NCBI RefSeq assembly: GCF_003473485.1
Contig: NC_053046.1
Coordinates: 2,366,001 to 2,430,000 of the forward strand
Direction: 5' to 3'
Source: Medicago truncatula
Lineage: Eukaryota; Streptophyta; Magnoliopsida; Fabales; Fabaceae
DNA length: 64,000 nt
Part shown: positions 1-49,502 of the stretch, one piece after another
How positions within the stretch are numbered: position 1 is the first letter of the stretch
Layout: the number at the start of each line of letters is the position of its first letter
Program-made: the position numbers and the translations under genes
Notes under the pieces: generated by a model
Databases searched by the model: none
Told to the model about the DNA's origin: nothing
What the model saw: the letters and a program-made list of their open reading frames with translations, nothing else

Positions 1-2942
1 GTCGATAAAAAAAGTGTTCAAAATCGTACTAAACTCTATCTACTCCGATTGTGGAGGTGCATTTGAATTTAGCACCATTGTTTCTAGCGTGACCATACTA
101 AAATAAAATAAAGGTGATTTATTCTTGAATATTTTTTATTTTATTTCTCATTTATTAAGATTCTTTTAATTAAAGCAAATGGTAAATTGTGCCCTTAAGA
201 ACATATATTAAGAAACTCATTATATAAATAAACGTATCAAAAATCATACGTTTGACTTTTTAAAAATTAAAATGTTAAGTTTTTCGATATAAAATTGTTG
301 TTTTTTTATTCCTTAACATGTAGCTTTAGAGAATAAGTTAACATAATTATGATCAAAGATGGGTTAATTAATGATATGGGTTCATTTTCTCTGTAAAAAA
401 ACACTATAAAGCGGTCAAAGATGATTAATATGTGGGACTGATTTCTGACTATGGTCACAATTTGTGAATGAAACAATATTGATTTAGCTGGATAAGACGT
501 GTCAAATGGGGACCAAACCAAATCACCATGTTGACACTTGCACAAACAAAGGCAAGAAATCATTGGACATATGCTACGTGTACGGCTAAGATTTAATGTT
601 CAGGGGACCTCAAAATAATAGAAAATCCTCCGTATTTTTGGCTTTTTCCGGTTTTGTGTACGGGTTAGGGTGTGTCATGTGTAACGAGTTGATCATTACC
701 TTGTGACATGTTTCTTATTGAAAGAGCAAATTAATTAAGGCATCAATTTTAATAGATACAGTGTAGGGGACCAAATCTGGTTGAGAATGTGAATACTGTA
801 AAAAAAAAAACCAACACTGCTTAAGTAGTAAGCACCAAGTGGGTTTGATTATACGTTAGAGTTTAAAAAATCTTAGTTGTATTGTAGATAAGACAATTAT
901 GCAGGCCAGGGTTTTTTCTCAGAATATATCAAACATCCCATCCTCGATCTACAAGAAAGTGACATTACATATCAAATGTGGCACCGATGTAGACATGCCA
1001 CAATAGGATCATTAACTATCATAACTTTGCACATGATGACTTTAATCTGTGGTGTAAAACATATGTTTTGCAATGAGAGATTGCATAGATTTGTCTCAAT
1101 GAACAAAGAAAAAGACGTATGTGTCGAGATTGTAAAAAGCATGTTTGCTAAGTGTGTGGATCATGGTCCATGCATGCAGGATGAGGTGTACAACTGCGTT
1201 CATGGATGGTATTGAATGTATATATCACCTATATGGAGGTTATTACTACATAAACTGAGATATTTGTGTGGTGCTGAGTCCCCATCAGCGGAACATATCT
1301 TTGCATAGAGTATTTTTTTTGCCTAGAGAACCTAATGAAAGCTATCTTCCAACAGGTGTTTTCACTAAAATTTGAGTAATGCATGGAACCAATTATCTCT
1401 TATATTAGGAATCTTTGAAGTAGTGCATGAAAGCTATTTCTTTTTTCCTTAATTAAAAATTCTTAAAGAGTATGTTTAAGTTTTGCTTGCGAGTTTGGAG
1501 GGAAAAGGAAGGGAGAGTTTTGAAAATAAGGAAGAAGCGAGACTTTGGAAGGTTTGTTTTTCTTCGTAACATAAAATTATCCTCATTTTGTAAACTAAAA
1601 AATTGTGTTAGACGAAGGTTTTTAGAGTTTTGGAGGTTTAATATTAACTATTTAAAATTAATCTATGTTGTTATAATATTCTTCAAATAAAAAATACATT
1701 AATCATAGTCATTAATTTATCATTCTATAAAAAAAAGGGACTTCTATGGTACACCCGTATAGTATCCACCAACAAATATTTTTTTAAATTGCTATGGATG
1801 CTGGAATTTGAAAATAGTTGCAGTATTTGAATTCAGTATTTTACAACAAGATCGATCAAGATTTTAATTTTTATGTTTAGCACAATTATAATAGATAGAT
1901 ATTGTTCTTGGACAAATATAAATATCTTTGTAATCGTTTGTTAAGTTCGAAGATCTTCTCAGGTTTGGATTGCGGAACTATACCCCTCAACATAAATGTA
2001 TCTTGTATATAAAAAAAGATATTGCTCTTGTCATTAATTTTTTTTTTCCATTTTTAAAAATTATATATAAGTTAGCCATCCACCTTCTGAGAAACATGAA
2101 AACACTCATGAACTCCCAGCCTAGCATGGTCCACAAAATGAAATATTCATATGCCATGCTACTAAGAATTTCTGCTTTTCTTTGAGCTAGTGCCATAAAA
2201 AGTAGTATCATGTTCAAGCATATCATCGTGCCACTTGCTCCCTTCTGCTGGTGTCAGAAATTTGGTTCAATATCCAAAGACCGAAACGATTTTCATGTTG
2301 CTTTCAGTCTCAATTCCATGTGCCACTTGACTTGTTAGAGATCCCTGTCTTGTTTTTTCTTTTGCTTTTATTGGGAGCAGGCCTTAAATTTGGCCAAAAC
2401 AAAATATAAAGACGCAAAAGGACCTCATTGGTTATTCAAGTTTTGGCTTTTGAGGGAACCAAAAGTTCTGGCGTTTTCTTTTGTTTTATTTTTCTGTCCA
2501 CACCCATATTAGCTTCTTAATTACTAGTTCATCACAAAATTAAAAAGGAGAATATCCTTTTCATTTTAGTTTTTTCGTACTAACTTGATGTGATCGGAAC
2601 TTTTAGGAGCCTAAAGAAGAAATACGTTTCATCTTTCAAATGAATCCCTAACTATATTAGTCGGTGAGGATGGACTATGTCACAACTCACGATATTTCAA
2701 AAACAAAATTCGACATCAACATTGCATGTATATGTGATCTACGATTTTCATATTTTTTCTCTCATTCAGCAATTTTTACACCACACATTCTAATTATATT
2801 TTATACAATGTCAAATATGATATTTGACTTATGTACTTATATATTGTTTTCGATTTTAATCATGTTCTCTCTCTTCCTCTCTCATCAATTTTGAAACCAT
2901 ACTACACATATTTTAACTACAATGTAATATGATGTACAACTC
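1..2942. other. intergenic DNA, no gene recognised
   Basis: This is AT-rich sequence. Its open frames are short (the longest is 79 codons at 976-1215), with no domain, no plausible splice partners and no codon bias that I can see. At about 1736-1760 the bases GGGACTTCTATGGTACACCC match the right end of the MITE at 61926-62329 read in reverse, so a relic of that family probably lies here. I see nothing else I can support. Confidence 0.55.
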
Positions 2943-2943
2943 A

Positions 2944-3002
<59 letters not shown>

Positions 3003-3003
3003 T
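2943..3003. repeat. compound CA/TA microsatellite
   Basis: A run of about 18 CA units is followed directly by about 11 TA units. The open frame that crosses it on the minus strand is an artefact of the repeat. Confidence 0.95.
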
Positions 3004-3862
3004 TTAATATTGTTTTGTTTTGTCTCATCAATTATAACACCATACACACGCAAGTTGTATTTTATATGATGTCTAATTTTAGTGTGTTTAAATATCACGT
3101 CTCATTTAACTTAGCCATGACAAATAGACAATGGATAATGTTGAGGGTGAATCTTTCCTCACATGTCCACCCTCAAATCCATGTAAAGTTCTCTATTCTT
3201 TCCCCAAACTATAATCAATCATTAATATCTCATTTAAAAATTGTTTAAGTGTTTTAATACTTCATCTTAGAGTTGGGTATATGTATCGGGGCACGCAAAT
3301 CGACCCATTTAATCCACGACTTGCATGGGATAGAGTCTAATTTTGTTCATCCATTTACATTTTAGTTCACCTGGATTGGACAACAAGATTTGCAGTTTAT
3401 ATTTACAGAATTGTGGATTGGTTTGCGACTCGTATATCCATTTTTTTTAATTTTATATAAAAAAAATCTACTACACTCATTGTCCAAGATTGTTTGTTAT
3501 ATTGAGGGGAAAAAAAAAACCCGAAGGTTGTACAAAAACCCGATGAGGATTTCGCAATCCATTCGTCGTAGATACATGAAAGCTTGATAGTTCTACCCAA
3601 AAACCACGGTTTATAGGAGAACTTTATCTAATTCACCAATTACTAAACATTTGTTGGAGAAAATAACATCATTAAGCAAGTTCTAAATCAATCACACAAC
3701 CGAATATCAAATGAATGTGAACCCTTATTGATGCAAATGTTCATTATCAAAAGACCAAAATGCCAACACAACAATTCAGCGACACAATCATTTTCCACCT
3801 TATCCACCTAAATATATACTCCATCTTGTCCTTTTTATAAGAAACAAAAAACATAAATTACT

Positions 3863-41625: not shown

Positions 41626-42125
41626 GGGTTAAATATATTTTTGGTCCCTATAAATATGTCAAGTTTTCGTTTTAGTCCCTCTAAAATTTTCCTTCAACTT
41701 TTAGTCCCTATAAAGTTTTCAATCTTCACTTTTGGTCCCTCTTTTAAAGTAAACTTATATGTATAATTCATATTATTTTATAAAATTTTCCAGAAAAATT
41801 CAAGATATTATAAGAATGACTCTAAAAAAAATTAAGAATTTTTTAACAAAACATGAATTTAATATGAATTTTTATATTGTTTATGGTTAAAAATTCATAT
41901 TTAATTTGTGTTTTGTTAAAAAAATCTAATTTTTTTTAGGAATTGTTTTTAGAATATTTGACACATTTCTGCACAATTTCATTAAAAAATATAAAAATTA
42001 AATTAAAAATAGGGACCAAAAGTAGTGATTGAAAATTTTATAGGGACTGAAAGTTGAAGGAAAATTTTAGAGAGACTAAAACGAAAAATTAACATATTTA
42101 TAGGGACCAAAAACATATTTAATCC
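41626..42125. mobile_element. 500-bp MITE with 9-bp target duplication
   Basis: The left end GGGTTAAATATATTTTTGGT and the right end ACCAAAAACATATTTAATCC are inverted repeats. They extend over 100 bp (GTCCCTATAAATATG against CATATTTATAGGGAC). The 9-bp direct repeat TTAATTAAT is exact on both sides (41617-41625 and 42126-42134). No coding sequence is present. It is probably Mutator-derived, and the family with TTTTGGTCCCTATAAA ends is common in legumes. Confidence 0.9.
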
Positions 42126-44449: not shown

Positions 44450-44956
44450 ATCATCCCTTAATTAATGCACACGAATTGGAAAATGTGCAACAAACTTACA
44501 GGAATTTGTGAATTTGTTAGGTTTTTTTTTTTTTTTTTGAAAAAGGAATTTGTTAGAGCGAAAATAGGATTGGATTGGATTTAGTAGTGAGCTGTTGTTT
44601 TTGATTTCATAAGCATTTGAAAATAACACTTTGATTAAATGGAAATAATAGGAAGAATTTGTTAATAAGAGTGATTTTTTTTTTTTTATGTTTATCTCTT
44701 TATTGTTGTGTTGAAAACAAAATAGGAGGAAATTGTTTGTTTTTTTTTTTGTTTTTATGTTTATCTATTTATTGTTGTGTTGGAAACAAAATAGGAGGAA
44801 ATTGTTATAGGAATAAGAGGAACGATTTTTAAAGTTTATCTCTTAATTAAACAGGTTTAATTGAACATGTGGGTAATAACGTAAAAGTCATCATAAAATC
44901 TAGGTTAAAATTAGGTTAAAAATTGGCTTACGGGTTAACTTTTATATATAAAGATA
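44450..44956 (-). mobile_element. Helitron 5' region, copy 1 (duplicated)
   Basis: On the minus strand this copy starts A/TCTTTATATATAAAAG at 44954, followed by TTAACCCGTAAGCCAA. That is clearly related to the 5' end of the Helitron at 46943-49501 (TCTTCTTATATATTAAAG, then TTAACAAGTAAGCC). The same 0.5 kb is repeated in direct orientation at 45182-45680. Within each copy an 85-bp module with TTTATTGTTGTGTTGGAAAC is itself doubled. No 3' end of the element was located. Confidence 0.7.
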
Positions 44957-45680
<724 letters not shown>

Positions 45681-46917: not shown

Positions 46918-46942
46918 TAAACTAAGTGATATTAATCACTAA

Positions 46943-49501
46943 CTAGACTTTCCACCCGTGCTGCCGCACGGGTCATATACATTGTAGATATAGTAGACAA
47001 AAACAAATCTCAATGCATATCAAAGAGAATGAAATATGTGGTCCCAAATATATGCAGATGTTGGAATTCGAACCTCAGACACCACGCTTATTCACCAAAA
47101 AAATATTAATTTTTATCAATCGTGTTACTTCATTCTTTTGTTAAAATTATATGTCAATATTATATTATTGGTATGTTACTTCATATTTTTCTTCTTTTTT
47201 TTGAAAAAATGTTACTTCATTCTTTTGTAAAAATTATATGTTAATGTTATATTATGTACCTAAAAATAGTTCATTCTTAACCTCAACATGTAAAATGTTT
47301 TATTTAAATAATTTTCCTTTTATCGAATATTTGGCCTTTACCGTAAATGATACCCTTTAACTGTTTGTTGAAATGTTTCTTCCACCTGTTTATATAGATT
47401 GCAAAATTCAGGTGCATTTTGTGGTAAATATTTAACAAAGAGAGTTCAGTTCTAATTTGGATGAAAAGTGTAATATTAACAAAAAAAATGTTGCTATAAT
47501 CTTTCAAAACCCTTTTATTCCAATAGGGCGATTTGTTTTGTTGAAGAAATAGGGCGATTTATTTTGAAGAAATAGGGGAAATAAAGCGATGCCGATTTGC
47601 TTTGTTCATGAAAATAGGAGATTAGGTGTGAGCATTAGCGTTGTTCATGAAAATAGAAGATTAGGTGTGAGCATTAGGGTTAAAACGGTAAAATTATGCA
47701 ACAGGGTTTAGGTTAAAATTAGGGCTCATGAAAATATGAGATTAGGTGTGAGCATTAGGGTTGTTCATGAAAATAAAAGATTAGGTGTGAGCATTAGGGT
47801 TAAAACGGTAAAATTATGCAACAGGGTTTAGGTTAAAATTAGGGCTCATGAAAATATAAGATTAGGTGTGAGCATTAGGGTTGTTCATGAAAATATAAGA
47901 TTAGGTGTGAGCATTAGGGTTAAAACGGTAAAATTATGCAATAGGATTTAGGTTAAAATTAGGGCTTACGGGTTACCTTTAATATATAAGAAGATTAGGT
48001 GAGAGCAATAGGATTGTTCATGAAAATAGGAGATTAGGTGTGAACATTAGGGTTAAAACAGTAAAATTATGCAATAGGGTTTAGGTTAAAATTAGGGCTT
48101 ACTTGTTAACTTTAATATATAAGAAGATTAGGAGAGAGCATTATGATTGTTCATGAAAATAGGAGATTAGGTGTGAACATTAGGGTTAAAACAGTAAAAT
48201 TATGCAATAGGGTTTAGGTTAAAATTAGGGCTTACATGTTAACTTTAATATATAAGAAGATTGTTCATGAAAATAGGAGATTAGGTGTGAACATTAGGGT
48301 TAAAACAGTAAAATTATGCAATAGGATTTAGGTTAAAATTAGGGCTTACTTGTTAACTTTAATATATAAGAAGATTAGGAGAGAGCATTAGGATTGTTCA
48401 TGAAAATAGGAGATTAGGTGTGAACATTAGGGTTAAAACAGTAAAATTATGCAATAGGGTTTAGGTTTAAATTAGGGCTTACATGTTAACTTTAATATAT
48501 AAGAAGATTGTTCATGAAAATAGGAGATTAGGTGTGAACATTAGGGTTAAAACAGTAAAATTATGCAATAGGGTTTAGGTTAAAATTAGGGCTTACATGT
48601 TAACTTTAATATATAAGAAGATTAGGAGAGAGCATTAGGATTGTTCATGAAAATAGGAGATTAGGTGTGAACATTAGGGTTAAAACAGTAAAATTATGCA
48701 ATAGGGTTTAGGTTTAAATTAGGGCTTACATGTTAACTTTAATATATAAGAAGATTGTTCATGAAAATAGGAGATTAGGTGTGAACATTAGGGTTAAAAC
48801 AGTAAAATTATGCAATAGGGTTTAGGTTAAAATTAGGGCTTACATGTTAACTTTAATATATAAGAAGATTAGGAGAGAGCATTAGGAATGTTCATGAAAA
48901 TAGGAGATTAGGTGTGAACATTAGGGTTAAAACAGTAAAATTATGCAATAGGGTTTAGGTTAAAATTAGGGCTTACTTGTTAACTTTAATATATAAGAAG
49001 ATTAGGAGAGAGCATTAGGAATGTTCATGAAAATAGGAGATTAGGTGTGAACATTAGGGTTAAAACAGTAAAATTATGCAATAGGGTTTAAGTTAAAATT
49101 AGGACTTACATGTTAACTTTAATATATAAGAAGATTATGAGAGAGCATTAGGAATGTTCATGAAAATAGGAGATTAGGTGTAAACATTAGGGTTAAAACA
49201 GTAAAATTATGCAATAGGGTTTAGGTTAAAATTAGGGCTTACTTGTTAACTTTAATATATAAGAAGATAGGAGATTAGGTGTGAACATTAGGGTTAAAAC
49301 AGTAAAATTATGCAATAGGGTTTAGGTTAAAATTAGGACTTACATGTTAACTTTAATATATAAGAAGATTAGGAGAGAGCATTAGGAATGTTCATGAAAA
49401 TAGGAGATTAGGTGTAAACATTAGGGTTAAAACAGTAAAATTATGCAATAGGGTTTAGGTTAAAATTAAGGCTTACTTGTTAACTTTAATATATAAGAAG
49501 A
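46943..49501 (-). mobile_element. non-autonomous Helitron with bounded ends, 2,559 bp
   Basis: On the minus strand the 5' end is A/TCTTCTTATATATTAAAG at 49501. The 3' end at 46943 is CTAG followed by T, so the element sits between A and T as Helitrons do. Seven bases before the CTAG is a perfect 8-bp hairpin (ACCCGTGC, loop GGCA, GCACGGGT; 46954-46973), the rolling-circle stop signal. There is no Rep/helicase gene. About three quarters of the element is a tandem array of its own 5' terminus (47590-49501). The 3' part carries a SINE fragment near 47040-47100 (B box AATTCGAACCTC). Confidence 0.88.
47590..49501 (-). repeat. minisatellite of Helitron 5' termini, about 13 complete ends
   Basis: Units of about 133 bp, with shorter forms of about 101-115 bp, are arranged head to tail. 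Each full unit on the minus strand starts A/TCTTCTTATATATTAAAG. It then has TAAGCCCTAATTTTAACC, ACCCTATTGCATAATTTTAC, CACCTAATCTCCTATTTTCA and GCTCTCTCCTAA. I count about 13 copies with the terminus between 47977 and 49501. A few older, more diverged copies without it lie at 47590-47960. The short forms lack all or part of a 32-bp spacer. Confidence 0.9.
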
Positions 49502-49502
49502 T

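Follow-up and report, generated by a model that had tools for sequence, protein, structure and literature searches.

A non-autonomous Helitron family of Medicago truncatula with tandem arrays of its own 5' ends, probably seeded by insertion into related copies

Structure of the element

The window, that is the whole stretch of 64,000 nucleotides of Medicago truncatula DNA analysed here (C5:2366001-2430000), carries on its minus strand a non-autonomous Helitron of 2,559 bp (46943-49501), in which 13 A/TC 5' ends are combined with one hairpin/CTAG 3' end (Table 1). A preliminary description of this DNA had held that both ends of the element can be fixed, and reading of the sequence confirmed this. 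The 3' hairpin has an 8-bp stem, lies 11 nt from the end of the element (z -4.13) and is the single palindromic place within it; together with the 5'-TC and CTAG-3' termini, it makes up the canonical Helitron signature. No open reading frame of at least 110 amino acids overlaps the element, which thus lacks the RepHel coding sequence of an autonomous Helitron and is therefore non-autonomous.

Table 1. Features of the element, in window positions
Feature	Position	Strand	Basis
3' terminus: hairpin ACCCGTGC-GGCA-GCACGGGT (46954-46973), GGAAAGT, CTAG (46946-46943), then host T at 46942	46943..46973	-	183 genome occurrences at no more than 2 mismatches, 92 exact
Unique body, without open reading frame of at least 110 amino acids	46974..47601	-	401 bp with 99-100% matches at 40 scored genome places
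Blocks of an older, degenerate repeat lacking 5' ends	47602..47971	-	Sequence reading
Innermost 5' end, GTAACCCGTAA type, most diverged (8 mismatches/101 bp)	47972..47994	-	24-mer matches, unit mismatch count
Array of 12 units, each opening TCTTCTTATATATTAAAGTTAAC after A	47995..49501	-	24-mer matches
101-bp unit, cut at CTCCTA^TTTTC, which is A^T of the longer unit	49268..49368	-	Cut-point comparison
Outermost unit, AAG type, host-side A/TC border: host A at 49502, element TC from 49501, start A/TCTTCTTATATATTAAAGTTAAC	49369..49501	-	Sequence reading

The 24-mer ATCTTCTTATATATTAAAGTTAAC matches 13 times on the minus strand between 47972 and 49502 (12 exact matches and one with 1 mismatch), always inside the element, and not once in 100 shuffles of the sequence, in keeping with the roughly 13 head-to-tail copies initially proposed. 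From outer to inner, the unit lengths are 133, 101, 133, 133, 133, 114, 133, 114, 133, 114, 133 and 133 bp. Units with complete 5' ends are confined to the outer ~1.5 kb (47972-49501); the proposal of a ~1.9-kb array of such ends thus holds for this part and not for 47602 to about 47971, which is an older degenerate repeat. Nor is there the inward rise in divergence that had been taken to suggest growth near the terminus: counted against the reference unit over 101 bp, mismatches from outer to inner are 2, 2, 1, 3, 0, 1, 2, 1, 2, 1, 1 and 0, followed by 8 in the innermost unit. The same pattern was seen across the 31 copies counted in the genome (see below), where the innermost unit has a mean of 7.7 mismatches and positions 1-13 from the inner end have means of 0.9-2.2. 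The innermost unit alone is old, and a divergence gradient is absent.

Elsewhere in the window, genes for an AP2 factor and an LRR kinase each lie more than 10 kb from the element. Short ~30-bp tandem repeats (41639-41742 and 42009-42112) flank one stretch (TTTTAGTCCCT...; on the other strand ATAGGGACC...) and are perhaps the ends of a miniature inverted-repeat transposable element, a name that is a guess. Two tandem duplications of 65-69 bp with nearly the same unit (44675-44806 and 45406-45529) lie ~0.7 kb apart.

The family in the genome

The genome searched was a 430-Mb assembly with eight large contigs. A 401-bp piece of the body gave 246 candidates at a first look, and the sample read consisted of the 40 that were scored (Table 1); as these are the best matches, the sample is weighted towards young copies. 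Each of the 40 places has two or more family 5' ends, which bears out the identification as a Helitron whose own 5' ends form an array and speaks against the unit being an unrelated satellite. Tandem arrays are hard to assemble and copy number here is that of the assembly; however, tandem family 5' ends recur in differing numbers at all 40 places, on eight contigs and in different flanks, and every unit opens with the element's own 5' end, making an assembly artefact, or a satellite captured by chance, a highly improbable origin. The copies occupy scattered positions with varied flanks on eight contigs, and the family, with its 183 close 3' ends in the genome, is young and dispersed.

Arrays were counted in 31 cases. 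Nine places were left out, namely L016 (complex structure), L019 (3' end unrecognised), L028 (containing a second Helitron family, Z), L034 (nesting together with an older body), L040 and L042 (arrays reaching beyond the stretch), L044 (array running into Z) and the two nested copies of L041. L035, which consists of two nested copies, and L050, with its first unit ahead of Z, were counted as they stand. Listing the copies by their number of 5' ends, a check that had been suggested, gave a range of 2 to 38 with 18-base matches allowing 1 mismatch; a stricter 24-base match gives lower counts (L022, 1; L013, 18). An A precedes the counted outer end and a T follows the 3' end in 31 of 31 arrays, the A being part of a family unit in L050. 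The last bases of the counted copies are CTAG in 29, CTAA in L036 and CTAC in L048. For nested insertions, the target was readable in L028, L044 and L041. The idea that numerous 5' ends could jam transposition was not upheld: L013 (20 ends) and L017 (38 ends) sit cleanly between A and T, and therefore many ends do not block movement. At six loci (L019, L027, L034, L036, L043 and L051), one or two extra TCTTCTTA octamers, each after an A, stand before the outer end and make the border ambiguous.

Over the last 700 bp, 20 bodies differ by 0 to 10 mismatches, and identical bodies may carry quite unlike arrays, as in L013 and L018 (20 versus 4 ends) or in L021, L026 and L023 (3, 5 and 8 ends, respectively). 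Between L021 and its siblings L023 and L026, the whole-unit differences can be placed at the outer side. Higher-order repeats occur in the arrays of L013, L014 and L017, where in L017 they are periodic, indicating that much of the later growth is due to duplication.

Junctions between units and nested copies

A total of 329 junctions match the reference unit, 275 of them with lengths of 133 or 114. Seven of the ten distinct cut points (8, 12, 53, 81, 101, 114 and 133) fall at A^T, a step found at 14 of the 133 positions of the reference unit (P = 1.3e-5); when the first 12, slippage-prone bases are dropped, the proportion is 5 of 6 (P = 7e-5). A further point, 109 in L016, reads as 101 plus 8. 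Since A^T is the Helitron target dinucleotide (PMC4778049, PMC5876387), a new unit length can in each case be read as the left side of an insertion.

Such insertions were also seen directly. Z is inserted at TCTTCTTA^TATATT, 8 bp inside the unit, with both junctions present in two loci and one in a third, and one family copy sits at the same +8 point of a Z-like end. Z itself measures ~3.4 kb in L028, has an internal tandem repeat, shares its first nine 5' bases with the main family and has 154 3' ends at no more than 2 mismatches; its loci are L028 (reverse complement 426-3814; C3:16.68 Mb), L044/L052/L054 (C3:57.47 Mb) and L050/L053 (C3:42.10 Mb). L016 together with L029 (C1:42702650-42720350) comprises three head-to-tail copies, of which bodies 1 and 2 are identical and the third different, and the CTAG/TTATATATTAAAG junction is present twice. 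In L041 (C5:35303900-35308600), two copies lie in opposite orientation, one inside a unit of the other.

We consider it probable that this is a young non-autonomous family whose 5' array was seeded by insertion into the 5' ends of relatives, followed by transposition and then expansion by recombination. As the junctions and nested copies show, elements first land within a 5' unit of another copy, mostly at A^T, and the +8 site (TCTTCTTA^T) was struck repeatedly. Rolling-circle transposition would then run from the 5' end of the outer element to the first 3' hairpin, and because this hairpin is that of the inserted element, the daughter would gain a cut 5' unit. Finally, unequal exchange, slippage or replication would grow or shrink the array to between 2 and 38 ends, a step suggested by the higher-order repeats and by siblings with identical bodies and different arrays. 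The element would move from its outermost AAG-type 5' end by means of a transposase supplied elsewhere.

Those siblings (L013/L018; L021/L023/L026) would also fit if ordinary tandem duplication, slippage and unequal exchange had built the arrays with no insertion step. Length changes can moreover be placed anywhere in a unit, and cut points 5, 6, 8 and 12 lie within short repeats. However, homologous exchange does not account for new unit lengths, units of 53, 81, 101, 114 and 133 are all cut at A^T and joined there to a TC end, and insertions were directly observed; we therefore regard duplication alone as rather unlikely. A published alternative (Xiong et al. 2016, as summarised in PMC12628747) is rolling-circle amplification of a circle that has lost its 3' terminator by internal recombination, so that head-to-tail 5' fragments are inserted as an array. 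It leads to the same outcome, several 5' ends with one 3' end, and periodic higher-order repeats as in L017 could be replication products; yet one unit length is expected per circle, whereas 25 of the 25 arrays with at least three spacings are mixed (some long spacings being missed unit starts), and neither the A^T cut points nor the relatives sitting there are predicted. Terminator loss in a circle thus seems unlikely as the source of these arrays.

Several observations weigh against seeding by insertion. Three of the ten cut points (5, 42 and 6) are not at A^T, and a further one, 94, is ambiguous, being confusable with the older repeat. The nested insertion in L041 lies at G^T, and nesting is inexact elsewhere, with three extra bases in L034 and with the end of the inner copy short by 5 bases in L016 and by 6 in L035. 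Among 100 family 3' ends listed, only L016 and L041 are family-family pairs within 5 kb. The +8 junction could partly be a tandem duplication of TCTTCTTA, and its repeated use was noted at the loci read. No parent-daughter pair showing the transposition step was found among those loci.

Which 5' end is used

The outermost unit is of the AAG type in 30 of 31 arrays, the exception, L022, being rearranged there. By comparison, the 227 units behind the outermost one comprise 113 of AAG type, 71 ATG, 36 of the old CCG type and 7 others (Fisher P = 9e-8, or 1e-5 without 37 old-type units, values that are optimistic because the copies are related). Outer ends are therefore not free picks from the inner ones. 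The suggestion that the array offers many start points is accordingly restricted, about half of the other units being of other types; it is retained in that the whole-unit differences between siblings allow starts at inner AAG ends, though internal gain or loss of units fits equally. Either transposition starts from AAG ends alone, or copies inherit the outer unit and the array changes behind it. Among 30 outer units there are two or more main haplotypes (one with 12 members and one with 11), and several unit lengths occur; this variety fits a start from AAG ends alone somewhat better.

Discussion

Elements in which one 3' end accompanies several 5' ends have already been published from plants and fungi, as has self-insertion as their cause. 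The tandem Helitron arrays of plants (Xiong, Dooner and Du 2016, through PMC12628747, PMC6591975 and PMC5876387) likewise have many 5' ends and a single 3' end, with from few to hundreds of repeats. As these citing papers present them, they are decayed, truncated and mostly centromeric, whereas the copies here are young, dispersed and cleanly inserted, and the cut points fit insertion rather than terminator loss. According to PMC5148889, Helitrons of Fusarium oxysporum have short 5' duplications (<200 bp) with one 3' terminus, attributed to self-insertion and to later transposition that starts at the leftmost 5' end and stops at the first 3' end, which is the model taken up in our second step. 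The Fusarium repeats are few, in contrast to up to 38 in the present family, which also shows cut points that coincide with the target dinucleotide and in which a second family has inserted at the same point. Adjacent maize Helitrons (PMC2267711) also place one element beside another, consecutive insertion having been deduced because the two differ, but that case is one pair joined at the border, without a 5'-end array. In the literature searched, where Xiong et al. is represented by citing papers only, we found neither the A^T cut-point test nor the shared +8 site.

It is also conceivable, albeit tentatively, that the 5' terminus is a preferred Helitron target. The transposase would then open or nick its own end at the +8 A^T, and relatives, including the second family, would insert at this point, for the most part in the same orientation; arrays would be a regular product of transposition and only AAG ends competent to start the next round. 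PMC4778049 describes a reconstructed bat Helitron transposase which cuts at the TC border and, on the opposite strand of its 5' terminal sequence, at an internal AT, and reports that 46 of its 1,751 insertions were not at AT. By analogy, we infer that the +8 A^T may be the counterpart of that internal cut.

Helentrons and DINE-1 elements have Helentron-type termini and an endonuclease-bearing partner. They resemble the present element in being rolling-circle elements with an internal tandem array (PMC4067079, PMC12628747); here, however, the element's own 5' end forms the start of the repeat unit, and the two termini are of the canonical Helitron type.

Terminator loss in a circle and self-insertion are competing published models for Helitrons with multiple 5' ends. 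Junction-level data from this family, namely cuts at the target dinucleotide, relatives inserted there and siblings with differing arrays, help to separate them, and the genome shows the steps of the build-up unusually clearly. With its 2 to 38 ends per array, the family also offers a natural series in which the transposase's choice of 5' end can be studied.
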